A DNA stretch of 64,000 nt from the NCBI RefSeq assembly GCF_014931715.1, contig NZ_CP063164.1, positions 1,240,001 through 1,304,000 on the forward strand. Reading direction: 5' to 3'. Made by a program: the position numbers and the translations under genes. Below are positions 41,084-55,537 of the stretch, in pieces (the first letter of the stretch is position 1; the number at the start of each line of letters is the position of its first letter). This DNA is from Sulfurovum indicum. GTDB taxonomy: Bacteria; Campylobacterota; Campylobacteria; Campylobacterales; Sulfurovaceae. The notes below the pieces were generated by a model that did not search any database, was not told the origin of the DNA, and saw nothing but the letters and a program-made list of their open reading frames with translations.

Positions 41084-42229
41084 TTACAGATAAAGTCTGA
41101 ACTCGGTGCCTTTCCCTGGAATAGAGTCCAGTTCTATCCCAATACCATGCTCGTCACAAATACTTTTTACAATACTCAGCCCCACACCGAAACCGCCTGA
41201 ATACTCGGTACCGCGTTTAAACTTTTCAAAGATCTCTTTTTGTTTTTCTGCTTCGATACCGATACCTTCATCAGTGATCCTGAGTATCCTGTTTCTCAGC
41301 GATATTATTATGTTTGATCTTGGTGAAGAGTATTTGATGGCATTACTGATAAGGTTTCCAAAAAGCAGTGTCAACTGGGATCTGGGAATAATGGATTTTG
41401 TCTCCCGGGCATCTACTTTGAACTCTATACGTTTGATCTCGGCAAGCGGCCTGTAGTAGGCAACACTCTCTTCCAGAACATCTTTTATATCAAGTGGTTC
41501 TGCTATCTCTTTCCTGCTACTGAAGTTCAAATAGGTCAAAGAGCGGTAGATATCATAAAGCTGTTTGGTACTGATCGAGATATTATTGAGGATTTTCGTT
41601 GTACACTCCCCTGCTTTCAATGCCTGGGCAGCGGACATTGAAAGTGAAGTAATGGGGGTATTGAGTTCATGGGTAATATCATTGATAAAGCGTTCTATCT
41701 GCGTGACCCTTTGATGTACTGGTTTCATAAAAAGCCTGGCGAGTATCCAGGCAATGACCATGACCACAAAAGAGACTATACCTACAGCAAGTAAAACAGA
41801 ACTGCCTAACCTCTGCAACTCTCCCTTCAGTGTATTGGACTGTACAACCACGTAGGCGATCCCCATGTGTTCTCGCGGTGCATCTGAAATAAAGATATTG
41901 TAGTCTTCAAGGGTAAGGTACCCCGGCTTTATTTCCATGTTCGGATCTACAAGCCTGCCCGATACTACATTTCCTTCGGTATCGATCAGTGCCATTATGA
42001 CATCTTTGGGCACGACGGTTTTTTTTACGGGTCTGTCATGCATGTGTGCTGTAATAAGTTCACCGGCCTTCTGATCGGCGAGATGTTCCAGTTTATAGTG
42101 TATTTCATTCTCCAATGCATGTTTTTGTGCCGTATAGTACCAAAACCCTATCAGGGAGATAAAGAAAAATGAGGATACGATGTAGAGTCCCAGAAAGGAG
42201 TAAAAGGATCTCTTTTCCAGATCATTCAT
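41084..42229 (-). CDS. Sensor histidine kinase, probable copper/silver sensor (CusS-like)
   Basis: Two transmembrane helices (about residues 15-35 and 150-172) bracket a periplasmic domain of roughly 110 residues. The dimerisation box is FINDITHELNTPITSL with the phospho-accepting His; ATP-binding N (LLFGNLISNAIKYSS), G1 (ITDEGIGIE) and G2 (GGFGVGLSIV) boxes follow. I choose the ATG at 42229, overlapping the regulator stop by 8 bp. Metal specificity is inferred from its position next to the copper ATPase and the shared promoter motif. Confidence 0.88.
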   Translation of the reverse strand: MNDLEKRSFYSFLGLYIVSSFFFISLIGFWYYTAQKHALENEIHYKLEHLADQKAGELITAHMHDRPVKKTVVPKDVIMALIDTEGNVVSGRLVDPNMEIKPGYLTLEDYNIFISDAPREHMGIAYVVVQSNTLKGELQRLGSSVLLAVGIVSFVVMVIAWILARLFMKPVHQRVTQIERFINDITHELNTPITSLSMSAAQALKAGECTTKILNNISISTKQLYDIYRSLTYLNFSSRKEIAEPLDIKDVLEESVAYYRPLAEIKRIEFKVDARETKSIIPRSQLTLLFGNLISNAIKYSSPRSNIIISLRNRILRITDEGIGIEAEKQKEIFEKFKRGTEYSGGFGVGLSIVKSICDEHGIGIELDSIPGKGTEFRLYL

Positions 42230-42875
42230 ACCGGTAGCCCAACCCTCTTTGCGTAATGATCTTGTCAGCACCTATGACCTCCCTGAGGTTTCGTATATAG
42301 GAACGGAGTGTGGCATCACTGGGTAATGCATCAAACCCCCAGATATTCTGTATCAGCTCTTCCGGGGAGATAAGTCTTTGGGGGTGTGCAATGAAATATT
42401 CCAGTATTTCACACTCTTTTGGTCTGAGGGTTTTTTCATTGACTCCGTCACTTACCAAATGTCGTTGGGGATAATAGGTCAGTGTATCACTGAGTTTCAC
42501 CAGGCTGTCCTGCTCTATGCGGAAAAGTACTTTACTCTTCTCAATACGCAGTCTCAGTTCTTCAAGTTCAAAAGGTTTACGGATATAATCGTGGGCACCG
42601 ACATCAAAACTCTCTTTGAGATGCCTGGTGTCTTCATACGCGGTAATGATAATAGCCGGTGTGGTATCGTTAAAACTTCTGATCTCTTTGAGCAGTTCTA
42701 TACCGCTTTTGCCTGGTACATTGATATCGAAGATGAACAGATCGTAAGACTCTTCATCAATAAACTCCTGTGCCTCTGCTGAATCGAATGCCCGTCGGGT
42801 TGTGTAGTATTGCTGTAAATAGTCCGTAAGGATGTCACCAAGGACAGGATCATCCTCCATCAGTAGTATTTTCAT
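42222..42875 (-). CDS. OmpR/PhoB-family response regulator, probable copper regulator (CusR-like)
   Basis: The receiver domain has the acidic pair (LLMEDDPVLGD), phospho-Asp in LFIFDINVPGKSG, Thr in IIITAYED and Lys in YIRKPFEL. A C-terminal winged helix follows (RPKECEILEYFIAHP, then LRSYIRNLREVIG). OmpR-family regulators bind direct repeats with an 11-bp period, which is the form of the TRCACA sites near the copper genes. The gene follows copA by 75 bp, so it is probably read from the copA promoter. Confidence 0.9.
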   Translation of the reverse strand: MKILLMEDDPVLGDILTDYLQQYYTTRRAFDSAEAQEFIDEESYDLFIFDINVPGKSGIELLKEIRSFNDTTPAIIITAYEDTRHLKESFDVGAHDYIRKPFELEELRLRIEKSKVLFRIEQDSLVKLSDTLTYYPQRHLVSDGVNEKTLRPKECEILEYFIAHPQRLISPEELIQNIWGFDALPSDATLRSYIRNLREVIGADKIITQRGLGYRYE

Positions 42876-42950: not shown

Positions 42951-45320
42951 TTACAGTTTTACATTTTTCAACCTGAGCGAATTACTAATGACCGAAACAG
43001 ATGAAAAACTCATCGCAGCTGCTGCAATAACCGGAGAAAGAAGTATACCAAAGAAGGGATACAGCACACCCGCAGCTATAGGTACCCCCAATGAATTATA
43101 GATAAATGCGAAAAAGAGGTTCTGCCGTATGTTCTTCATCGTAATACGGCTGAGCCTGATGGCTCGTATAATACCCCTGAGATCACCTTTGACCAGGGTC
43201 ACACCGGCACTCTCCATCGCCACATCTGTACCTGTACCCATAGCGATACCGACATGTGCCTGTGCCAGGGCAGGCGCATCATTTACCCCGTCACCTGCCA
43301 TGGCAACATATCTGCCCTCTTCCTGAAGTCTCTTAACCACTTTTGATTTCTCCTCTGGAGAAACCTCTGCTATGACCCTGTCTATATGCAGTTTGGCAGC
43401 AACGGCTTTGGCAGTGGTTTCATTGTCGCCTGTCAGCATCACAACCTCAATATTTTCTTTATGAAGTGCCTTGATCGCCTCTGACGTACCTTCCTTAACA
43501 GGGTCCATCACTCCCAATATTCCGGCAGCTTTTCCGTCAAGGGCAATAAGCATCACGGTCTCTCCATTCTCTCTATACTGTTGGGATACGACTGAAAGAT
43601 TCAACGGGTCGATCCCAAGACTTTTCAAGAGTTTGTCATTGCCTATGGCAATAGAGATACCGTCTACTTCTCCGGTCACACCTTCTCCGGTCACAGAGTT
43701 GAAGTGATCTGTCTTGCCGAGCTCCAAACCTCTCGCAGCAGCACCTTTCACAATGGCTTCCGCAAGTGGATGTTCACTGGCACGTTCCAGTGTGGCGGCA
43801 GCATACAGCATCCTGTTTTCATCAACCCCTTCAAGTACTTTAACCGTAACAAGTCTGGGTGCGCCCTCTGTCAGGGTACCGGTTTTGTCTACAACAAGTG
43901 TATCAATTTTTTCAAGTATCTCCAGTGCTTCCGCATTTTTGATGAGTACACCCATACCGGCACCTTTACCGGTACCTACCATAATTGAGACAGGTGTTGC
44001 CAGCCCCAGTGCACAGGGACAGGCAATGATAAGTACAGCCACAGCTGAGACAACAGCATAGGCAAGACGGGGTTCCGGTCCCCAGAAGTACCATCCAGCA
44101 AAGGCCAGTACCGATACCAACACTACAATGGGTACAAAATAGCCTGAAACAGTATCGGCCAGTTTCTGGATAGGTGCACGTGAACGCTGTGCCTGTGCCA
44201 CCATATTCACTATCTGGGACAGAAGTGTATCTGCTCCGACCTTTTGTGCTTTTATAAGCAGAGAGCCCGTTGCATTAACCGTTGCACCTATTACCGTGTC
44301 TCCTGCCCGTTTCGGTACTGCAACCGGTTCTCCCGTCACCATGGACTCATCAACATTGCTTTCACCTTCTGTTACGATACCATCTACAGGTATCTTGTCG
44401 CCAGGACGAATACGCAGAATATCCCCAACCTGAACATGCTCAATAGGAATATTCTCTTCAGTCCCGTTTTCCCGGACGATACGTGCCGTATTTGGTGCAA
44501 GTCCAAGCAGCTTCTGAATAGCCGTATTGGTCTGGGAACGGGCACGAAGCTCCAGTACCTGTCCCAAGAGTACCAATGCCACAATAACTGCGGCTGCCTC
44601 AAAATAGACATGTACAAGCCCGCCTTCAAACTGCATTTTTGGTGGAAACAGTTGTGGAAAAAACAATGCGACCATACTGTAGAGCCATGCTGCACCCACC
44701 CCCAGAGAGATCAGCGTGAACATATTGAGATTCCATCTCTTTACCGAAAAGTAGCCTCTTACAAAGAACGGCCAGCCGCCCCATAGAACGACCGGGGTCG
44801 CCAAAATGAACTCGATCCACTGTACCATAGACATTGAAAGCCATGACGGCAGCCACTGGGGTACCAGATCAGCGACCATTGCTAAAATGAATACAGGTAA
44901 CGCCAGCAATGTACTCACCTTGAACCTGCGTGTCATATCGATCAGTTCTTCATTCTCGACCTCACCTGCCTCTACGATCATAGGTTCAAGCGCCATACCG
45001 CATATGGGACAGCTTCCCGGACCTTTCTGTTGTATTTCCGGGTGCATAGGACAGGTATAAACTGCCTTGCCGTCTATAGCTTTATCTGATATCTCATTTG
45101 AATGCGTATGTGCATGTACCTCTTTAAAGAGGGGGCTGCATGTCGAACATTCTGCAGAAGCAGCCTTATCTGTATCAATATAGGCTTGTGGATCATCTTT
45201 GAATTTATGCTGGCAGGTATCAGAACAGAAATAGTAGGCTGCCCCCTTATACTCCAGGTGCAACGCAGTATCTTTTGAGACTTCCATACCGCAAACGGGA
45301 TCTTTCACATTACTCTTCAT
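42951..45320 (-). CDS. copA: Copper-translocating P-type ATPase with N-terminal YHS and HMBD metal domains
   Basis: The 789-residue P1B-ATPase carries the copper-type CPC motif ([10 protein letters not shown]), [18 protein letters not shown] and [11 protein letters not shown]. The last helices contain YNSLGVPIA and [14 protein letters not shown], signatures of Cu+ pumps. The N-terminus lacks a CxxC ferredoxin-like domain. Instead it has a YHS domain (DPVCGMEV...YYFCSDTC) and a Cys/His-rich CPMHPEIQ...[10 protein letters not shown] domain. It exports Cu+ from the cytosol. Site 45420-45436 lies 100 bp upstream. Confidence 0.95.
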
Positions 45321-45419
45321 TTTAGATCCTTTTTTAACCCGGGTTATGCATGAAAAATCAATAATCTGACATACATACTGCAGGTTTAATGTATTACTAG
45401 GATTATTATAGTGTGATTG

Positions 45420-45436
45420 TGTGTATATAATGTGTA
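45420..45436 (-). promoter_or_regulatory. TRCACA direct-repeat site upstream of copA
   Basis: On the minus strand the site reads TACACA-N5-TACACA. A -10-like TACATT (plus-strand 45388-45393) begins 26 bp downstream. It is one of six such sites in the copper region and the likely control point for the copA-regulator-kinase unit. Confidence 0.6.
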
Positions 45437-45559
45437 TGGCGTCTGAAACGTACTATTATGTTTTGATCGGAGAAATGGCAGTCCGGATCTATTGGACTGC
45501 CTGATAAGGAGAATTACAAAATACAGAGCGTTTCAAAACCCTCTCTCATATTGCATTGG

Positions 45560-45895
45560 TTACTTGCCGGTATTGCACTTGCCTTGTGCTTTCATATTTT
45601 TCATATCACCGTCAACACTGTCGTCACCGGTTGCAAGTTTATTGGCATGTTCCAGTTCAAGTTCCGCTTTTGTCGGTTTTCTTGCCGGTTTTTTTACTTT
45701 CACTTTTACCTTTCCGCTTTGACCGGCATTACATTTTCCTGCCGCTTTCATTTTTGACATATCACCATCAACGCTGTCGTCACCAGTCGCTGTTTTGAGT
45801 GCATGTTCCAGTTCTACTTCTGCTTTGGTATCTGCCTGTGCAAAACCAAATCCCAGTCCCAATGCAAGAATACTTGCTACAACTACTTTTTTCAT
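45560..45895 (-). CDS. Small secreted protein with two copies of an LEHA...ATGDDSVDGDM motif
   Basis: A signal peptide (VVVASILALGLGFGFAQA) is followed by two 35-residue repeats, about residues 25-59 and 77-111. Each has ELEHA, the invariant ATGDDSVDGDM, then MKA and GKCN with one cysteine. A basic linker (SGKVKVKVKKPARKPTK) joins them. The motif offers His, Met, Asp and Cys ligands, so metal binding is plausible. I recognise no named family. Its 5' flank carries the TRCACA site at 45964-45980. Confidence 0.8.
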   Translation of the reverse strand: MKKVVVASILALGLGFGFAQADTKAEVELEHALKTATGDDSVDGDMSKMKAAGKCNAGQSGKVKVKVKKPARKPTKAELELEHANKLATGDDSVDGDMKNMKAQGKCNTGK

Positions 45896-45963
45896 TTCAT
45901 ATCCTTTAAATATGTTTTTTTCAGAGGTTTCACTCTCTGTACATCCGTATTATAAAGATATAC

Positions 45964-45980
45964 TGTGCATTGAGTGTGTA
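45964..45980 (-). promoter_or_regulatory. TRCACA direct-repeat site upstream of the 111-aa protein
   Basis: The minus strand reads TACACA-N5-TGCACA. A TATAAT lies on the minus strand at 45948-45953, only 10 bp downstream, so the site would overlap the -35 region; other -10 choices are possible. Confidence 0.55.
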
Positions 45981-45987
45981 GATTCTC

Positions 45988-46004
45988 TGCACATTTTATA
46001 CACG
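45988..46004 (+). promoter_or_regulatory. TRCACA direct-repeat site, plus strand, with no adjacent gene
   Basis: TGCACA-N5-TACACG (one mismatch to the pattern) lies 7 bp from the minus-strand site at 45964-45980. A CATATA/TATAAG -10-like stretch follows at 46032-46039. No gene starts before 46159, so this may add to control of either side or drive a short transcript. Confidence 0.4.
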
Positions 46005-46092
46005 ATACCAAACAACGCTTCTGAACATCTTCATATAAGGTATTTCTAATAGTCGTACATCCGCTTAAGATCTAATATAGTGGTTAGTAAAG

Positions 46093-46142
46093 TACACACT
46101 TTATGCACACTTTAGCGGTACACTAAACATAGAAAATATACT
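46093..46142 (+). promoter_or_regulatory. TRCACA site and -10 box of the SHOCT-copA-copB unit
   Basis: TACACA-N5-TGCACA at 46093-46109 is followed 27 bp later by a TATACT -10 (46137-46142). The ATG at 46159 follows with AAAGGAG. There is no -35 consensus; the site occupies the place of an activator just upstream of -35. Confidence 0.65.
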
Positions 46143-46158
46143 TTAGAAAGGAGTTGTC

Positions 46159-46368
46159 ATGTATGGTTTCGGACACGGATGGGGCATGGCATTTGGATGG
46201 CTTGTTCCACTTATAGTCATTGGTATTCTCTTTTACCTTTTGCAAAACAGGAGAGGAGCACATAAAAAAAGCGAAGCGCAGGATATTCTGGATAAACGTT
46301 ATGCCAACGGGGGCATAAGCAAAGAAGAGTATGAAGAAAAGTCAAGACTTTTAAAAGAACATGAATAG
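46159..46368 (+). CDS. Small membrane protein with SHOCT domain
   Basis: A 69-residue protein with one transmembrane helix (WLVPLIVIGILFYLL) and a C-terminal SHOCT motif, ILDKRYANGGISKEEYEEK. SHOCT is a short oligomerisation element often found at protein ends. The glycine/tryptophan/histidine-rich start (MYGFGHGWGM) is typical of small SHOCT proteins near copper genes. It is the first gene of the unit with the multicopper oxidase (12-bp gap). Confidence 0.85.
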   Translation: MYGFGHGWGMAFGWLVPLIVIGILFYLLQNRRGAHKKSEAQDILDKRYANGGISKEEYEEKSRLLKEHE

Positions 46369-46380
46369 AAGGGGAACAGT

Positions 46381-48114
46381 GTGGAACGAAGAACATTTAT
46401 AAAAGGGGTAGCAGCAAGCTCCCTTATGGGAATTGCAGCAGCAGACCTGCAGGCAGAGACACCTAAAAGAGTATCAGATAACAGTCCGGTTCTTACAGGG
46501 AAGGAGTTTTATCTTGATATTGATTATACCCCAGTTAATATTACAGGGAAAGCTGCTGTAGCTACTACGATCAACGGACAGATTCCCGGTCCTACCCTGG
46601 TATGGCAGGAAGGTGATACTGTCACACTGCATGTAACAAACCACTTGAAAAAGTACTCTTCCATTCATTGGCACGGGATCATTCTTCCTGCACCTATGGA
46701 CGGTGTACCGGGTATCAGTTACAAAGGCATTGCACCCGGAGAGACCTTTACATACACATTCAAGGTAGGTCAGCATGGTACCTACTGGTATCACAGCCAT
46801 TCGGAATACCAGGAACAGACCGGTATGTACGGCGCCATTGTTATCAAGCCCAAAAAGAGAGAACCCTTCCGATATGAGAGGGATTATGTTGTCATGCTCT
46901 CAGACTGGAGTGATGAAAAGCCTGCGGAAATATACCGTAAACTCAAACAAATGAGCGACTACTACAACTTTTCACAGAGAACGGTGGGGGACTTCTTTTC
47001 CGAAGTAAAGGAAAAAGGGTTTGCAAAAGCCTTTGAGGAGAGAAAAATGTGGAATGGGATGCGCATGAGTGATCGTGACCTTTCTGATGTAACAGGATAT
47101 ACCTATACTTACCTGATGAACGGGGAAAACCCTGCTACACAGTTCAAAGCCCTCTTTAAAAAAGGAGAGCGGATACGGCTGCGTTTTATTAACGGTGCAG
47201 CGATGAGTTTTTTTGATGTCCGTATTCCCGGACTTAAAATGACTGTGGTTGCAGCAGACGGAAACCATGTAAAACCTGTCAGCATTGAGGAGTTTCGTAT
47301 TGGTGTGGCAGAGACTTACGATGTCATTGTAGAACCGGTATCGAACAGAGCTTATGCTATTTTTGCCCAAAGTATTGAACGAAGCGGCTATGCACTCGGC
47401 TCACTGACACCATCTGCTTCCCAATTGGCAAATGCACCAAAAATGGATAAACCCCAACCCCTCTCAATGGTCGATATGGGGATGGATATGACCAATATGG
47501 ACCATAGCGGAGCAATGAAATGCGGTAGCGGCATGAAGATGTCCAAGACAAAAAGTATGCAAAAATACAAATGGAAAGCCATGGAAACACAGAAATACCC
47601 TGTAACAAAACTGCCTATGGCCCGGGGTGTACAGACCACTATGATGGCGATGTCTCCAAAATACCGGCTGGATGATCCCGGGGTAGGACTGCGCAACAAC
47701 GGACGAAGGGTACTGACATATGCAGATTTGAAGAACCGATACTCTACACGTCATCATAAAAAACCGGATAGAGAGATCGTATTGCATCTTACCGGAAATA
47801 TGGAACGCTACATGTGGTCGATCAACGGAATCAAATATGCCGATGCCAAACCGCTGCGGTTCAATTACGGAGAACGTTTACGTATTACTTTCATCAATGA
47901 TACTATGATGAACCATCCTATGCACCTTCACGGAATGTGGAGCGACCTCGAGACAGGAGATGATAATCATCTTGTGCGCAAACATACCGTTATAGTGCAG
48001 CCTGGAGCAAAGATCAGCTATCGTGTAACGGTCGATGCAAAAGGTGGCTGGGCATACCATTGCCACCTGCTGTACCATATGGCAGGGATGTTCAGAAAAG
48101 TAATCGTAGTATAA
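46381..48114 (+). CDS. copA: Periplasmic multicopper oxidase CopA/PcoA (copper resistance)
   Basis: The Tat-type signal RRTFIKG precedes three cupredoxin domains. All copper-ligand motifs are intact: HWHG, YWYHSH, HPMHLHG and the type-1/trinuclear HCHLLYHMAGM. A Met-rich stretch around residues 360-395 (MVDMGMDMTNMDHSGAMK) is typical of the CopA/PcoA group, which oxidises Cu(I) in the periplasm. The start is a GTG at 46381 after GAAGGGG. copB follows by 9 bp. This gene is distinct from the P-type ATPase also called copA. Confidence 0.94.
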   Translation: MERRTFIKGVAASSLMGIAAADLQAETPKRVSDNSPVLTGKEFYLDIDYTPVNITGKAAVATTINGQIPGPTLVWQEGDTVTLHVTNHLKKYSSIHWHGIILPAPMDGVPGISYKGIAPGETFTYTFKVGQHGTYWYHSHSEYQEQTGMYGAIVIKPKKREPFRYERDYVVMLSDWSDEKPAEIYRKLKQMSDYYNFSQRTVGDFFSEVKEKGFAKAFEERKMWNGMRMSDRDLSDVTGYTYTYLMNGENPATQFKALFKKGERIRLRFINGAAMSFFDVRIPGLKMTVVAADGNHVKPVSIEEFRIGVAETYDVIVEPVSNRAYAIFAQSIERSGYALGSLTPSASQLANAPKMDKPQPLSMVDMGMDMTNMDHSGAMKCGSGMKMSKTKSMQKYKWKAMETQKYPVTKLPMARGVQTTMMAMSPKYRLDDPGVGLRNNGRRVLTYADLKNRYSTRHHKKPDREIVLHLTGNMERYMWSINGIKYADAKPLRFNYGERLRITFINDTMMNHPMHLHGMWSDLETGDDNHLVRKHTVIVQPGAKISYRVTVDAKGGWAYHCHLLYHMAGMFRKVIVV

Positions 48115-48123
48115 GGATAAAAA

Positions 48124-48828
48124 ATGAAACAGAAAGAGATGAACTTGAAAAAAATACTGCTGCTTCTGGGAAGCTGTATGGCAATTGGGCAGACGCTGCA
48201 GGCTGCCGGTGCGGACGATCCTCTTCGCACAATGCTTATTATGGACAGACTGGAAATACTAGACAACGATGAGAATACCAGAGCATGGGAAGGAAGTTTC
48301 TATATAGGGTATGATATAGATAAACTCTATATCTATTCTGAGGGTTCGGCAACATCGGAAGGGCTTGAGTCAAGTCAGAATGAACTGGTCTATTCCAGAG
48401 CTATCGCACCTTTTTGGGATATACAGGCCGGTATTGCTTACGATAAGAACAGTGATGCCTCCAGGACCTGGGGAGAGATTGCCATTGCAGGTCTGGCACC
48501 CTACTTCTTTGAAACACGGGCAGCACTGCTTGTCAATAGCAATGGGAATACAGCGCTTCGTCTGGATGCCGAGTATGAGGCACTGATTACCCAAAAGCTC
48601 ATACTGACCCCGTCACTGGCAGTTGACTTCTATACAAAAGACGATCCGTCTATGCAGACTGGATCCGGGCTCTCAGCTGCAGAAGCAGGCTTGCGTCTGC
48701 GTTATGAGATCGTTCGTGAATTTGCACCTTATATCGGAGTCACATGGGAAAAAACATTTGGCAATACCCGTAATTTCAACGCCGTTGATGAAACATCACT
48801 GCTTATCGGGGTGCGATTCTGGTTTTGA
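48124..48828 (+). CDS. copB: Outer-membrane copper resistance protein CopB (PcoB)
   Basis: The signal peptide (ILLLLGSCMAIGQTLQA) is followed by a beta-barrel: AWEGSFYIGYDIDKLYIYSEG, WDIQAGIAYD, LRLRYEIVREFAPYIGVTW, ending in the aromatic IGVRFWF. This is the CopB fold without the long Met/His-rich N-terminal region of Pseudomonas proteins. AAGGAT lies before the ATG at 48124. It forms a unit with the multicopper oxidase. Confidence 0.9.
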   Translation: MKQKEMNLKKILLLLGSCMAIGQTLQAAGADDPLRTMLIMDRLEILDNDENTRAWEGSFYIGYDIDKLYIYSEGSATSEGLESSQNELVYSRAIAPFWDIQAGIAYDKNSDASRTWGEIAIAGLAPYFFETRAALLVNSNGNTALRLDAEYEALITQKLILTPSLAVDFYTKDDPSMQTGSGLSAAEAGLRLRYEIVREFAPYIGVTWEKTFGNTRNFNAVDETSLLIGVRFWF

Positions 48829-48944
48829 TACGTATTTTCCGTCTATCCGGCTTTAAGATCTTTACAGGCTCAGCCGGGAGGAACCTCTGCTGAGTACCTG
48901 TTTTACCCTGAAACTTCTCTACTTTAATAAGCCATATCTGACTT

Positions 48945-48996
48945 TACACATAACCTACACACAGCATCTGTACAATGAAAAAAGACCGAATACTAT
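48945..48996 (+). promoter_or_regulatory. TRCACA site and -10 box upstream of the 148-aa protein
   Basis: TACACA-N5-TACACA (48945-48961) is followed 29 bp later by TACTAT (48991-48996). The ATG of the next gene is at 49038 after AAAGGA. Bases 48829-48944 contain a CTCAGC/GCTGAG stem-loop (about 48868-48893) after copB and no gene. Confidence 0.6.
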
Positions 48997-49037
48997 AGAT
49001 ATAGTATTTCAAAAAAAGTATAAAAAAAGGATTAGAA

Positions 49038-49484
49038 ATGTTATACAGAAAAACAGTTGTTTTCTTGTTGATGATAGTTTCCACAACATTGCTCATGGCA
49101 GAACACGCACAACGGCATCAGATAGTTGATAACATCAGTGTCTACTTTGGTGCCATCCCGGCACAGATGATAGGTGGACATGGCAGTATGCACTACCCTG
49201 AAAACAGGAAAATAGGAAAACATACGTATCATATACTCGTTTCTCTTTTTGATGAGAAGTCAGGAGAACGTATTACAGATGCATCTGTCAAAGCTACTGT
49301 TATTCCCCTGGGTATGAAGGGAAAAACAAAAAAACTTGAACCTATGCATGGTGAAGTAGTAAGCTACGGCAACTTCTTTAAAATGCCGGAAAGGACACCC
49401 TATACGATACAGGTTGAGATAGTACCTGAAAAAAGCAGTAAGAAATCGATTGCTGTCTTTACATTTACCAGACCCAGAGATTAG
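49038..49484 (+). CDS. Secreted hypothetical protein of the copper region, 148 aa
   Basis: A signal peptide (VVFLLMIVSTTLLMA) precedes a beta-sandwich-like domain. It is His/Met-rich near the N-terminus (EHAQRHQ, MIGGHGSMHYPE, GKHTYHILVSLFDEKSGERI) and has LEPMHGEVVSYGNFFKM. Proteins with this layout occur beside metal-resistance genes, but I cannot name the family. Its promoter has the TRCACA site, so a periplasmic copper-handling role is inferred. Confidence 0.75.
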   Translation: MLYRKTVVFLLMIVSTTLLMAEHAQRHQIVDNISVYFGAIPAQMIGGHGSMHYPENRKIGKHTYHILVSLFDEKSGERITDASVKATVIPLGMKGKTKKLEPMHGEVVSYGNFFKMPERTPYTIQVEIVPEKSSKKSIAVFTFTRPRD

Positions 49485-49632
49485 TTCTATGACCTTTCTG
49501 TAAAAGCCGGATCTGAGAGTAGCTCGCGGGAGACAGAGAATATACAGACAGCCGTGTCGGAAGGAAAGGCTTTCAAAACAACAAACGCTTTTCAGAATGC
49601 GTTTGGAGAGTGAACACAGAATAGCTCTGCAC

Positions 49633-49684
49633 TGCACACTTTATGCACAAAGAACAAATAAAATAAGTATATATCGGCTATACT
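49633..49684 (+). promoter_or_regulatory. TRCACA site and -10 box of the RND efflux unit
   Basis: A perfect TGCACA-N5-TGCACA (49633-49649) is followed 29 bp later by TATACT (49679-49684). It precedes the small His-rich gene at 49710 and the RND genes, which places the efflux system in the copper regulon by inference. Confidence 0.65.
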
Positions 49685-50015: not shown

Positions 50016-50154
50016 CCCTTTTTACTGCACCACAGTTCTCTCAAAAAGAACACTTATTATATTAGAAAAAAGGATCACCTATGCCATATCTACTGCTTAC
50101 ATTTTCTGAGTGCACATACGTTAATAGTGTAAAAACCGTATGGAGACAAAAAAC

Positions 50155-51330
50155 ATGAAACAACTTGCTCTACTGTTTATCCTGCTTTCCCTAAATCTTG
50201 ATGCAATGAGTTATGTACAATTCAAAGCACATACCCTGAAACACTCAAAGATACTGCAAGCTCAGGAACTCTCACTGCAAATGACCCGACAGAAAAACAA
50301 GATACTTCTAAGAAGCTCCAACCCCTCCTTGAACCTTGAGGTCTCAAACTACAATAAAAAGGCCGGAGGAGAGAGTTTTGGATATGCCGCCGGTATTTCC
50401 CAGACCATCCGTACAGAAAACTATAGGGATGGTCTGCAGGAAAAAGCCCGGGCAACGATGCTTTTAAGCAAAGCATTTGTAACCCAGGGAAAAGCCGGAT
50501 ATATCAAAACACTTGAAATCCTCTACACACACTATGTCTACCAGAGTAAGATGCTGACACTGATGCAGCAGGAGTACAGACTCTCAAAGAGAATTTCGGC
50601 CATAGTCAAGGAACGCTATAAAAGCGGATCGGAAAACCGTGTTGCCTTCCTTCGGGCAAGAACAGAGACTCTCACACTCAAAACACAGACCTATGCCATC
50701 AGGCAGCAACTCAACGAACTCTACAGCCAACTGCTTGCCATAGCAGGATTGACTAAAAAGGTTCCCCTGGAGAAAAAGTTCATATACTCTGTCTCTCCGG
50801 AAACACGAAACAGTACACAACTGAGTCCTCAGCAGCTTCTGCTTCAGGCAAAAAAGAAGCTCTACCGGAGTGATCACAGCATAAACAGGAGCACTTTTCG
50901 GAATTTCGATCTCGTTGCCGGTATCGAAGAGGAACCTGACCAGAGCATTCTACGTATAGGTGTAAATATTCCTCTCTCCATTAACAATGACCGAAGTGAA
51001 GAGAGAATGCTGGCAAAACTCAAAATAATGCAGACAATGCTGGATAACGAACAGCTCTCTATTGAAATAGAGTCTCAGAAACGGATGCTTAAAGATTCTA
51101 TAAGAGAGCTTTCACAGCAGTACCTGGTACTCAGGACACTGCAAAAAGAGCAGCAGGAGCTTGCGGCTCTTCTTCAGGAAGGCTACAAGATCTCAAAGGG
51201 CTCTCTCTTTGAGCTTATGAGAGCGAAAAACAAGCTTATACAGACAAAAAAAACCCTGCTTCAAACCGAAAAAATGATCAATGACCAAAAAATAGAATTA
51301 CATTTTTTACAAGGAAACTACAATGAATAG
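50155..51330 (+). CDS. TolC-family outer-membrane factor of an RND metal efflux system (CusC/CzcC-like)
   Basis: A signal peptide (LALLFILLSLNLDA) is followed by long alpha-helical coiled coils and two short beta regions, the TolC layout: NPSLNLEVSNYNKKAGGES, YTHYVYQSKML, FDLVAGIEEEPDQSILRIGVNIPLS and a final helix with TLLQTEKMINDQ. GGAG at 50142 lies 9 nt before the ATG at 50155. It overlaps the adaptor gene by 8 bp. Confidence 0.88.
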   Translation: MKQLALLFILLSLNLDAMSYVQFKAHTLKHSKILQAQELSLQMTRQKNKILLRSSNPSLNLEVSNYNKKAGGESFGYAAGISQTIRTENYRDGLQEKARATMLLSKAFVTQGKAGYIKTLEILYTHYVYQSKMLTLMQQEYRLSKRISAIVKERYKSGSENRVAFLRARTETLTLKTQTYAIRQQLNELYSQLLAIAGLTKKVPLEKKFIYSVSPETRNSTQLSPQQLLLQAKKKLYRSDHSINRSTFRNFDLVAGIEEEPDQSILRIGVNIPLSINNDRSEERMLAKLKIMQTMLDNEQLSIEIESQKRMLKDSIRELSQQYLVLRTLQKEQQELAALLQEGYKISKGSLFELMRAKNKLIQTKKTLLQTEKMINDQKIELHFLQGNYNE

Positions 51331-52480
51331 ATATATACTTTTTTTACTGCCTGTTTTGGCTTTTTCAAGCCAGATCAGCATAGAACGCGTACAGCTGAAG
51401 CCAATGGGAAAGATCGTCAGGGCGAATGCCCAGATCACCCAGCTTTCTGACCAGAAACAGAAGATCGTATCCCGCCTTCGGGGACATGTTGAGAAATATT
51501 TTGTCACAACAGGAGAGTATGTACATACAGGAGAGAGAGTAGCACTCATAGAGTCTATCGAGCTCTCGAAAATGTCTGCGAAATATGTCGCTCTCAGACA
51601 ACAGGTCAAAGCAGCCAAAGAAAAACTTGCCACAGCAGAAAAACTCTACATGAAAGGTTTGACATCTCAAAATGAACTCAACCAGATCATTATCGAATCA
51701 GAAGATCTGCTGGCAAAACAAAATACCCTTGAGTCTCAGCTGAATTCCCTGGGGATCAAAGCTTCTGAGGTCAAAGGAGCAACCGACCAGTTCATACTTT
51801 ATGCCCATGCTGACGGTGTTGTGGGAGAGATATTCGTTCCCCTCCACTCCAATGTCAATGCAGAAGATACACTGATGTCCGTTATTAACCAAGGTGCCTA
51901 CTATGCTGTTGCCTACCTCAGTGTCGACGATGCCATGAAGGTTACCGGCAAAACAACCGGTTTTGTTACTGTTGCCGGCAAGAAGTACCCCGCACACTTT
52001 GTACAGCTTCTCCCGACTGTTGATGAAGAGACACAGCGTGCCAAGGTGCTTTTCAGGATGAAAGAGCACCCTGGGAACATGCTCATCAATGCCTTTACCC
52101 AAATGGAGATCTCACTTGAGCCTTCTGCTAAATCGCTTATTGTAAAAAGATCTTCTCTCTCCCTCTTCCGGGGCGAATGGGTTGTATTTGTTGAAACTGA
52201 ACATGGAGAAGAGCGCATGAAAGAAGAGGGTCACGGTGATCATGCAAAAGAGGAAGCAGAAGAGGAAAAAGAGAGTGCACATGACCATGAAGCTGAAAAA
52301 GAACATGAGGGAGAGCATGACGAGGCACCCTATAGACCGAAAGTGGTCAAAATCATCGCTTTTTACGGAGATGATGTCGCTGTTGAAGGCGTGGAAGAAG
52401 GCGAATTATATGTCTCTAAGGGCGTTTACTTTGTCAAATCAATGCTGCTCAAATCATCCCTTGGCGGGCATGGTCACTAG
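51323..52480 (+). CDS. RND efflux periplasmic adaptor (CusB/CzcB-like) with His/Glu-rich segment
   Basis: A membrane-fusion protein with signal peptide, a barrel-sandwich lipoyl half (VSRLRGHVEKYFVTTGEYVHTGERVALIES), a helical hairpin, and the second half ILYAHADGVVGEIFVPLHSNV. Around residues 290-340 lies an acidic His-rich insert (EHGEERMKEEGHGDHAK...HDHEAEKEHEGEH). That insert could bind metal. It links the inner pump with the TolC-type channel. Confidence 0.9.
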   Translation: MNRYILFLLPVLAFSSQISIERVQLKPMGKIVRANAQITQLSDQKQKIVSRLRGHVEKYFVTTGEYVHTGERVALIESIELSKMSAKYVALRQQVKAAKEKLATAEKLYMKGLTSQNELNQIIIESEDLLAKQNTLESQLNSLGIKASEVKGATDQFILYAHADGVVGEIFVPLHSNVNAEDTLMSVINQGAYYAVAYLSVDDAMKVTGKTTGFVTVAGKKYPAHFVQLLPTVDEETQRAKVLFRMKEHPGNMLINAFTQMEISLEPSAKSLIVKRSSLSLFRGEWVVFVETEHGEERMKEEGHGDHAKEEAEEEKESAHDHEAEKEHEGEHDEAPYRPKVVKIIAFYGDDVAVEGVEEGELYVSKGVYFVKSMLLKSSLGGHGH

Positions 52481-52489
52481 GAGCAGCTT

Positions 52490-55400
52490 ATGAAACGATT
52501 TTTCCAACTGCTCATACAGTATAAATTTTTAGTACTTGCCCTCTTTATTGCCATTGCCGGTTTCGGTTACAAAGCCTACAAAGATATCCCGGTGGATGCC
52601 TTTCCTGACATCACACCCAAACAGGTGGTCATCTACACCGAAAGCCCGGGGAACTCGGCAGAGGATATTGAGAAGCTCATCACCTATCCCATCGAATCTG
52701 CCATGTCCGGACTCCCCGGAGTAAAGATGATCCTCTCCAACTCGATCTTCGGACTCTCCTATGTCTCTATCTTTTTTGAAGACAGTTACGATACCTACTT
52801 TCTCCGGCAGCTGGTCACCGAGCGGCTCAATACTATAGAGATACCAAAAGGCTGGGGAAAACCCGCTATGGGACCAAACACGACCGGACTGGGACAGGTT
52901 TTCTGGTATCAGATCACAGACAGCAGCGGGAAACTCTCTTTAACCAGACTGCGTGAACTGCAGGAGTATGTCGTATCTCCGCTGCTCAAATCCGTTGACG
53001 GTGTGGAGGAGGTCATAGGCTGGGGAGGCTTTGACAAACAGTATGAAGTTCTCATTGATCCCAAACGCCTTCAGGCAGCCAACGTTACCTATGATGAGAT
53101 CATTAAAGCGCTGGAGCGCTCCAATATGTCCGCCGGAGGGCAGTATCTGGAGTTCAACCGGGAACAGTATCTTATTCGCGGTGCGGGCTTTTACAGGACA
53201 CTTGATGACATTAAAAACAGTGTCATACGCAGCAAGGATGCCATTGCCGTTACCATTTCTGATGTGGCAGAGGTCAAAAAGGGGAAAGCACCTCGTTTCG
53301 GTGCGGTGACCATTGACGGAAAAGAGGCGATGTTCGGCATGGTACTCCAAAGAAGCGGTACCAATGCAGCCAAAGTCGTCGAATCGATAAAAGAGAAACT
53401 CCCAACAGTCAATGCTGCACTTCCCAAAGGAGTGCACATCAAAACCATCTACGACAGAACCGAGATTACCCATAAAGCAGTAAATACGATGACATCCGCT
53501 CTTTTGACAGGCTCCGTTCTTGTCGCCATTGTGCTCTTTCTATTCCTCTTTGAGCTGCGTTCGGCATTTATTGTCATTGTTTCACTGCCGCTCTCACTTC
53601 TGATAGCATTTTTAATGATGAAGGAGTATGGCATGTCGGCAAACCTGATGAGTCTCAGTGGGCTTGCTGTTGCCATCGGAATGATCGTGGATGGTACCAT
53701 CGTTGTGGTTGAAAACAGCTTTAGACTGCTGCATGACAATCCTAGGCTTGGACGTGCAGAAGTGATCTCCACAGCAACGGCAGAGGTTGCCAAGCCGGTT
53801 ATTTTTGCCCTCCTTATCATCACGGTCGTATTTATCCCCCTCTTAAGTCTTGAAGGACTGGCAGGCAAACTCTACACGCCTATGGCTCTGGATATCGTCT
53901 TTGTTATGCTGGGTTCACTGGCTGTTGCCCTGCTGCTGGTACCCGTACTCTCATTTATGCTGCTTAAAACAGGCAGGCACTCCAACTCCCCGCTCATGAG
54001 TGCTATTAAAAGCTTCTACACCCCTATGCTGGAATTTGCGCTGCATAACGCCAAAAAAATCATCACCCTCACCTTTGCTGTTTTTACGATCCTTATCGTA
54101 CTGCTTGCACAGCAGGGACGGGAATTCATGCCAGAACTCAATGAAGAGTCCATCATGTACCGTGTCATTGCAATTCCCGGAACTGCTCTGGGACAAAGTG
54201 TAGAGACCGGAAAGGCCATCGAAAAATACATCCTGGCACACTATCCCGATGAAGTCACCTCCGTACTCTCCATGATCGGACGAAGCGAAAAAGGTGAAAC
54301 TGCCCAGGCCAACTACATGGAAGTGCTTCTTACCCTCAAACCTGAGCTCAAAGAGATAGAAACACTGGCACACAGAATGACAGAAACATTGCAAAAAGCC
54401 TTTCCTTATGTACAGTTCATACCGACACAGCCTATTGCTATGCGTATTGAGGAGCTCCTTGAAGGCGTAAAAGCAGAACTTGCTGTCAAAATATACGGTG
54501 AAGACCAGAAAGTCATGGAGAACATAGCCGTTGAGATCCAGCAGGCAGTTTCAGGTATTAAAGGGTTGGAGAGACCGGAAACAGAATCACAGCTTGGACA
54601 GGCACAGATCACCATACGTCCTGACTATCTGGCACTTTCGCGTTATGGGATCAGTGTTGATGAAGTGATGCGTATTATTCGAAACGGTATAGGAGAAGAG
54701 CCTGTTACAGAGAAGATAGAAGGTATCCGCCGTTTTGGTATTGTTCCAAAAATAAAAGGGGCAAAAAAAGATATCTCCTCTATCAAAGCTGTGCTGTTAC
54801 GCAGCAATACGGGAAAAATGGTACGTCTGGATGAAGTTTGTGACATCAGAGTCGTTCAGGGACCTGCCTTCATCAAGCGTGAGGACCTGAGTCGTTATAT
54901 GGTGCTCTCTATGGAAGTGGAGGAGAGGGACATTGCTTCGTTTGTCGAAGAGGCCAATGAAAAGATCAAAAAAGATGTGCATATACCTGACGGATACTAC
55001 ATCAAGTGGGCAGGAGATTTCAAAAATATGCAGGAAGCCACAGCGACTCTGGCTTTGATCATTCCTGTTACACTGCTGCTGATACTGTTGCTGCTCTATA
55101 CCGCATTCAATTCATTTAAAAAAGCTTTTCTTATTTTACTGGGTGTACCGCTGGGACTCATAGGCGGTATTGTCGGACTTCTGATCAGCGGTGAGTACCT
55201 GAGTGTGTCTGCTATTGTCGGGTTCATTGCCATTTTTGCCATTGCTATACTAAATGGGATCGTACTCGTCTCTTTCATAGATGAATTAGGCAATAAATTC
55301 CCCCATGTAAAAACAGTTGACCTGGTAAAAGATGCAACATTGTTACGGTTGAGACCTGTACTGATGACAGCGTTTACCACACTGTTTGGTATTTTACCTC

Positions 55401-55537
55401 TCCTCTATGCCACAGGTGTCGGCTCCGAGATCCAGTATCCTCTTTCAGTGGTTGTGACCGGAGGTATCATTTCATCCACAGTATTAACGTTATTGGTATT
55501 GCCTGGGTTGTATGTATTGTTTTTTAGAAAAAAGTAG
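52490..55537 (+). CDS. HME-family RND heavy-metal efflux pump (CusA/CzcA-like)
   Basis: The 1015-residue pump has 12 transmembrane helices and two large periplasmic loops. PVDAFPDITPKQV and GLSYVSIFFEDSYDTYF are typical HME-RND N-terminal segments. The TM4 signature is AIGMIVDGTIVVVEN, which mixes the AIG...VD start of CusA-type pumps with the DG...VEN end of divalent-metal types. Substrate therefore cannot be set by motif; the upstream TRCACA site argues for Cu(I)/Ag(I). Bases 55538-55725 hold no gene. Confidence 0.92.
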   Translation: MKRFFQLLIQYKFLVLALFIAIAGFGYKAYKDIPVDAFPDITPKQVVIYTESPGNSAEDIEKLITYPIESAMSGLPGVKMILSNSIFGLSYVSIFFEDSYDTYFLRQLVTERLNTIEIPKGWGKPAMGPNTTGLGQVFWYQITDSSGKLSLTRLRELQEYVVSPLLKSVDGVEEVIGWGGFDKQYEVLIDPKRLQAANVTYDEIIKALERSNMSAGGQYLEFNREQYLIRGAGFYRTLDDIKNSVIRSKDAIAVTISDVAEVKKGKAPRFGAVTIDGKEAMFGMVLQRSGTNAAKVVESIKEKLPTVNAALPKGVHIKTIYDRTEITHKAVNTMTSALLTGSVLVAIVLFLFLFELRSAFIVIVSLPLSLLIAFLMMKEYGMSANLMSLSGLAVAIGMIVDGTIVVVENSFRLLHDNPRLGRAEVISTATAEVAKPVIFALLIITVVFIPLLSLEGLAGKLYTPMALDIVFVMLGSLAVALLLVPVLSFMLLKTGRHSNSPLMSAIKSFYTPMLEFALHNAKKIITLTFAVFTILIVLLAQQGREFMPELNEESIMYRVIAIPGTALGQSVETGKAIEKYILAHYPDEVTSVLSMIGRSEKGETAQANYMEVLLTLKPELKEIETLAHRMTETLQKAFPYVQFIPTQPIAMRIEELLEGVKAELAVKIYGEDQKVMENIAVEIQQAVSGIKGLERPETESQLGQAQITIRPDYLALSRYGISVDEVMRIIRNGIGEEPVTEKIEGIRRFGIVPKIKGAKKDISSIKAVLLRSNTGKMVRLDEVCDIRVVQGPAFIKREDLSRYMVLSMEVEERDIASFVEEANEKIKKDVHIPDGYYIKWAGDFKNMQEATATLALIIPVTLLLILLLLYTAFNSFKKAFLILLGVPLGLIGGIVGLLISGEYLSVSAIVGFIAIFAIAILNGIVLVSFIDELGNKFPHVKTVDLVKDATLLRLRPVLMTAFTTLFGILPLLYATGVGSEIQYPLSVVVTGGIISSTVLTLLVLPGLYVLFFRKK

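Follow-up and report, generated by a model that had tools for sequence, protein, structure and literature searches.

The copper locus of Sulfurovum indicum raises the question of whether its transcription units share one operator and, if so, which regulator reads it. We analyzed a stretch of 64,000 nucleotides, hereafter the window (positions 1240001-1304000 of the 2.21-Mb genome), in which the following copper-locus genes were found.

41084..42271, minus strand: sensor kinase of RR1, with conserved His/Met in its periplasmic part
42222..42875, minus strand: RR1, OmpR/PhoB-type response regulator of 217 aa (receiver and Trans_reg_C), the probable reader of the boxes described below
42951..45320, minus strand: P1B-type Cu ATPase with YHS and HMBD domains, copA unit (TIGR01511 above cut-off)
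45560..45895, minus strand: exported protein of 111 aa (P111) with two tandem repeats, in no curated family
46159..46368, plus strand: SHOCT-like small membrane protein of 69 aa, under the Pfam cut-off
46381..48114, plus strand: CopA/PcoA-type multicopper oxidase, MCO (TIGR01480 above cut-off)
48124..48828, plus strand: CopB outer-membrane copper resistance protein (PF05275)
49038..49484, plus strand: exported protein of 148 aa with a weak YtkA-like match
50140..55537, plus strand: OEP, periplasmic adaptor and CusA/CzcA-type RND pump (TIGR00914 above cut-off)

Both domain matches of RR1 (PF00072 and PF00486) exceed the gathering scores, and its acidic pair, phospho-acceptor D50 and K100 are conserved. 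In the periplasmic part of the kinase H63, M77 and H135 are conserved and H76 is present in 25/30 sequences; these four residues are plausible copper ligands. The GTG start listed for the kinase is probably too early: a Met at residue 15 is kept in 28 of 30 orthologs, and a kinase starting there would overlap the regulator gene only shortly. Each P111 repeat contains ELEHA...ATGDDS...KCN, and the gene is duplicated in one locus (L112). P111 is strongly tied to Sulfurovum copper loci and is possibly an unrecognised periplasmic metal protein.

The sequence-only reading had placed six TRCACA-N5-TRCACA sites in this region. A pattern search recovered every one of them at the same coordinates and on the same strand, five being exact and one carrying a single mismatch, as had been claimed.

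45420..45436, minus strand: box 1, TACACATTATATACACA, copA promoter
45964..45980, minus strand: box 2, TACACACTCAATGCACA, promoter of the 111-aa protein
45988..46004, plus strand: degenerate box, TGCACATTTTATACACG, one mismatch and no -10, a probable relic
46093..46109, plus strand: box 3, TACACACTTTATGCACA, SHOCT/MCO/CopB promoter
48945..48961, plus strand: box 4, TACACATAACCTACACA, promoter of the 148-aa protein
49633..49649, plus strand: box 5, TGCACACTTTATGCACA, 106-aa/OEP/MFP/RND promoter

The units with a box are therefore copA-RR1-kinase, the 111-aa protein, SHOCT-MCO-CopB, the 148-aa protein and 106-aa/OEP/MFP/RND. The proposal of a shared copper regulon agrees with this gene content, the targets in the window being copper-handling by their family matches, and with a CusC-like gene and a second oxidase that have boxes elsewhere in the genome.

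At up to one mismatch the window contains 10 box matches, compared with 1.27 +/- 1.14 expected from 100 shuffles, none of which reached 10. Across the genome 15 exact boxes were found, and 67 at up to one mismatch versus 28 for a reversed-pattern control. Equal frequency at random loci, which would have spoken against a regulatory role, was thus not seen: shuffles and reversed control both lie far lower. When all TRCACA pairs within 60 bp in the window were considered, the 11-bp spacing occurred five times and every other spacing at most once.

Downstream of each exact window site a -10 element was located.

45405..45410, minus strand: TATAAT, 9 bp past box 1
45949..45954, minus strand: TATAAT, 9 bp past box 2
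46119..46124, plus strand: TACACT, 9 bp past box 3
48971..48976, plus strand: TACAAT, 9 bp past box 4
49659..49664, plus strand: TAAAAT, 9 bp past box 5

A -10-like sequence had been noticed after four of the sites, at 26-29 bp. Its presence stands, but the variable distance does not: counted from the first base of the box, TANNNT begins at 26 bp in 5/5 exact window sites, 9 bp past the box end. No TANNNT lies at the corresponding distance from the 45988 site. Genome-wide, TANNNT follows at a gap of 9 or 10 in 15/15 exact boxes versus a chance of 3.8% per site (the window frequency of TANNNT over two adjacent offsets). Among one-mismatch boxes a -10 accompanies 11/18 intergenic and 1/31 intragenic matches (Fisher p 1e-5). 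Near RR1 orthologs, at loci picked independently of the -10, TANNNT stands at gap 9 in 66 of 70 distinct boxes, while the runner-up offset accounts for 8; gap 9 or 10 is found in 67/70.

With its end 9-10 bp short of the -10, the box occupies the place of the -35 element. The predicted layout is that of a class II activator site, in which the box overlaps the -35 region at a fixed distance to the -10. An operator architecture of the OmpR/PhoB type, with tandem half-sites about one helical turn (11 bp) apart, is supported by the same sequences. The attribution of the repeat to the OmpR family fits the domains of the regulator, the 11-bp period and the fixed -35 position.

These distances bear on two other explanations. 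The hexamer itself could be the -35 element of a sigma70 or other sigma factor promoter, with no activator site, and it does stand at a constant distance 5' of a -10-like hexamer. The distances from hexamer end to -10 are, however, 9 bp and 20 bp, while the usual spacer is 16-18 bp; a hexamer repeated at 11 bp is typical of a regulator bound in tandem, and box number tracks the presence of RR1 and of its paralog RR2. We regard this explanation as very improbable. Even less credit can be given to the view that the motif plays no regulatory part here and reflects chance or compositional enrichment, or a set of DnaA-type boxes (TTATNCACA-like). A DnaA-box-like TATRCACA is present in several sites, and the TRCACA hexamer is common by itself (80 in the window). 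Neither source predicts 11-bp phasing or a fixed, oriented 9-10-bp distance to the -10, and neither predicts near-exclusive intergenic position, conservation at copper genes or an almost empty reversed control. As a sole explanation it is refuted by -10 spacing together with conservation. Both the DnaA-box and the -35-element explanations were rejected on spacing, orientation and gene content.

The activator layout can be compared with known systems. The Pho box lies in the -35 region. In it an OmpR/PhoB-type regulator binds head-to-tail to two direct-repeat units of 11 nt each (PMC4415409). The Sulfurovum box shares the 11-bp period and the -35 location, but its half-site is TRCACA instead of the PhoB sequence and its gene set is copper/envelope, not phosphate. 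Membership of RR1 in the PhoB family was rejected (114.6 bits against a curated cut-off of 296.2). The HP1043/HsrA box of Helicobacter pylori, TTTAAG-N5-TTTAAG, overlaps the promoter at -42 to -26 (PMC8345958). Both the 6-5-6 layout and the phylum are common to the two boxes, whereas the hexamer is another one and HP1043 is an orphan, phosphorylation-independent, essential regulator. Judged by resemblance, its equivalent in the present genome may be a separate gene at 413820 and not RR1. By description, RR1 and its kinase also resemble CrdRS of H. pylori, a copper-responsive OmpR-type two-component system of the same phylum that controls a copper efflux complex; the review consulted gives no CrdR operator sequence (PMC9696931). 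The CusR/CopR/CzcR group (TIGR01387) is similar in pairing a copper-locus regulator with a kinase and in having a CusCBA-like pump and PcoA/PcoB-like proteins as targets. Assignment of the pair to this group was rejected on score (RR1 78.8 bits versus 279.2; kinase 88 versus 292.6). The AgrR box, related to that group, is a 6-4-6 inverted repeat (PMC7380067).

Conservation of the box was then followed upstream of orthologous copper genes, where the regulon proposal had required it. At RR1-ortholog loci a box with up to one mismatch precedes copA in 15/16 cases, P111 in 13/13, SHOCT in 8/13 and MCO in 8/15, compared with 36/293 background genes, some of which are further regulon members; the reversed motif precedes just 9 genes out of 440 altogether. 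No box was found at these loci 5' of CopB or the kinase, both operon-internal. A box belonging to the RND unit itself is confined to this species and its near-identical relative; four further relatives (L116, L126, L128 and L132) have the unit without one, collinear with RR1-kinase and downstream of it.

A back-to-back pair of boxes with a 24-bp offset recurs in relatives, where it drives a second multicopper-oxidase-like gene. In the window box 2 is probably the minus member of such a pair and the 45988 site the decayed plus member; its decay and lost -10 would fit the disappearance here of the second oxidase-like gene that it serves in relatives. In one genome (G003) the MCO promoter with its box is present in two identical copies about 279 bp apart (L131/L202), one of which drives a truncated oxidase start; the duplication is partial and recent.

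It had further been suggested that RR1 controls itself by read-through from the copA promoter. An RR1 gene directly behind copA has its own box in just 3/16 cases. When RR1 is not directly behind copA, its own box with a -10 (up to two mismatches) is found for 15/26 distinct genes, versus 27/252 background upstream regions (Fisher p 1e-7). Detached RR1 genes thus often have a box of their own, which supports autoregulation, by read-through where RR1 follows copA and through its own box at those 15 loci. No box was found immediately 5' of RR1 homologs of Sulfurimonas (53-58% identity).

Boxes with a -10 element total 27 across the genome. Those outside the window include the following, the names of the SOD, Msr, rubredoxin, synthetase, cupin, GMC, metallo-hydrolase and second oxidase coming from sequence reading without a family search.

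105716, exact: DoxX and Cys-rich KCQAGKCG protein
106467, exact: second small Cys-rich lipoprotein-like gene
530435, exact: 63-aa membrane protein
635589, exact: rubredoxin-like gene
896089, exact: AMP-binding synthetase
925116, exact: CusC-like operon (efflux)
1148810, exact: rhodanese
1374238, exact: 79-aa Cys protein
1412813, exact: haem-binding protein
1699398, exact: second multicopper oxidase, triple repeat
556630, one mismatch, with -10: DsbD
1038793, one mismatch, with -10: Fe-type SOD
111758, one mismatch, with -10: MsrBA
1002369/1002406, one mismatch each, with -10: DoxX/metallo-hydrolase divergent pair
106490, one mismatch, with -10: GMC-type dehydrogenase unit
1656953, one mismatch, with -10: cupin

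The predicted regulon is not limited to copper efflux but takes in DsbD, SOD, Msr and, together with DoxX, bufferin-like proteins. Genome positions 104.8-106.5 kb encode two small exported Cys-rich proteins of the KCQAGKC type, each with a box and one with DoxX. The two proteins resemble EGKCG bufferins, whose operon encodes a secreted Cys-rich repeat precursor, DoxX and MNIO/DUF2063; KCQ[SA]GKC repeats and DoxX were seen in this region. In a genome without RR1 (L221, G122 C10:107859) a box with its -10 sits 117 bp 5' of a KatG-like catalase-peroxidase gene, which would widen the oxidative-stress side of the regulon.

Which regulator reads the boxes? The idea that a single one, encoded behind the ATPase, controls all units gained no support from the comparison of genomes: the same box is found in genomes without RR1 but with RR2, and is nearly absent from those lacking both. 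RR1 orthologs (at least 60% identity) are present in only part of the genus, and many RR1-less genomes have boxes. RR2, encoded at genome position 546427, is a paralog 37% identical to RR1 (blastp) with a similar recognition helix (ATIRTYIKNLR against ATLRSYIRNLR), and it was found in nearly all box-bearing genomes without RR1. RR1 is therefore probably not the sole reader. Mean exact boxes per genome were 10.1 with RR1 and RR2, 7.0 with RR2 only, 8.0 with RR1 only (two genomes) and 2.0 with neither (RR1 and/or RR2 versus neither, Mann-Whitney p 5e-5, ignoring phylogeny); the genomes share ancestry and are hence non-independent, and gaps in MAGs can look like gene absence. Among the genomes with neither regulator, six reach a completeness of 94% or more, and these have 0-2 exact boxes. 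The dsbD box (gap 10) is kept in 4/6 RR2-bearing genomes, while dsbD in eight genomes lacking RR2 yielded a single weak two-mismatch match. In RR1-less genomes copA has a box in 4/5 cases with RR2 and in 0/2 without both; the nearly complete, RR2-bearing G120 has copA without a box. A third paralog, RR3 (genome position 915468, 9 kb from the CusC-like operon), was rejected as reader because box-poor genomes carry it.

RR2 might instead be the principal reader of every box, also in the window, with a minor or different role for RR1. Within the genus RR2 has a wider distribution than RR1; it accompanies boxes, also at copA, in genomes lacking RR1, and in this genome sits between two genes with boxes, the 63-aa gene and dsbD; no box was found within 250 bp 5' of RR2 itself. 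On the other hand, in G003 (99% complete, RR1 present, no RR2 found) boxes and -10 elements persist at the MCO and RR1 loci, and RR1 has its own box once detached from copA. The boxes also differ in sequence. Those near RR1 favour TGCACACT and gap 9, with G at half-site position 2 in 74%/60%, whereas those of RR2-only genomes favour TACACA and gap 9 or 10, with G in 20%/18%. Separation of RR1-type from RR2-type boxes by PWM is moderate (leave-one-out 59/68 and 37/49). By this measure the window sites 45420, 45964 and 46093 look RR1-type (log-odds +3.7, +2.1 and +4.8), and 48945 and 49633 are ambiguous (-0.3 each). We consider RR2 as principal reader unlikely. A few kb upstream of RR2, at 541303-543999, lie two opposed gene copies that read as IS110-type transposase.

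We favour, with good confidence, the view that the exact sites are operators of activator-dependent sigma70-type promoters, with RR1 as the main reader in the copper locus and RR2 reading a related box elsewhere. The sites, their spacing and conservation, the gene content and the association with RR1 and RR2 are directly visible in the sequences, and from them we infer binding, activation, copper as the signal and a division of labour between RR1 and RR2. Through its conserved periplasmic His/Met the RR1 kinase would sense periplasmic copper. Phosphorylated RR1, most likely the main reader in the copper locus and encoded behind copA, would bind the box in place of the -35 and contact RNA polymerase (class II). 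It would switch on copA-RR1-kinase, giving positive feedback, as well as the 111-aa protein, SHOCT-MCO-CopB, the 148-aa protein and the RND pump. RR2 would read a close variant of the box, richer in TACACA and with a gap of 9 or 10, at dsbD, the bufferin-like/DoxX genes and other envelope genes, its action probably overlapping with that of RR1.

A broader proposal is put forward tentatively, at somewhat less than an even chance: two paralogous two-component regulators may use one operator alphabet in an integrated copper and periplasmic thiol/oxidative-stress regulon of Sulfurovaceae and other Campylobacterota, with about 27 promoters here and RR1 as a split-off copper branch (G at half-site position 2, gap 9). 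Such a regulon would connect disulfide reduction, superoxide dismutase and methionine sulfoxide repair, as well as bufferin-like copper-binding proteins, with copper efflux.

OmpR/PhoB-type activators on 11-bp direct repeats are a well-known kind of system. The literature search returned no paper on this motif or on copper regulation in Sulfurovum, chemolithotrophs of sulfidic and vent habitats, and the operator sequence and gene set appear to be undescribed in the papers searched. The analysis yields an operator that can be tested, together with about 27 promoters listed for copper and envelope-stress control in Sulfurovum. Gain and loss of RR1, RR2 and boxes form a natural experiment on paralogous regulators sharing or splitting an operator. 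Of 397 genomes sampled across the phylum, 65 have boxes including a -10, and these are spread over 25 of 68 genera. Their density is highest in Sulfurovum, with smaller sets in other families, including genomes with Sulfurimonas-type RR1 homologs. In one distant genome (L162) boxes precede genes that read as DsbA- and DsbB-like.
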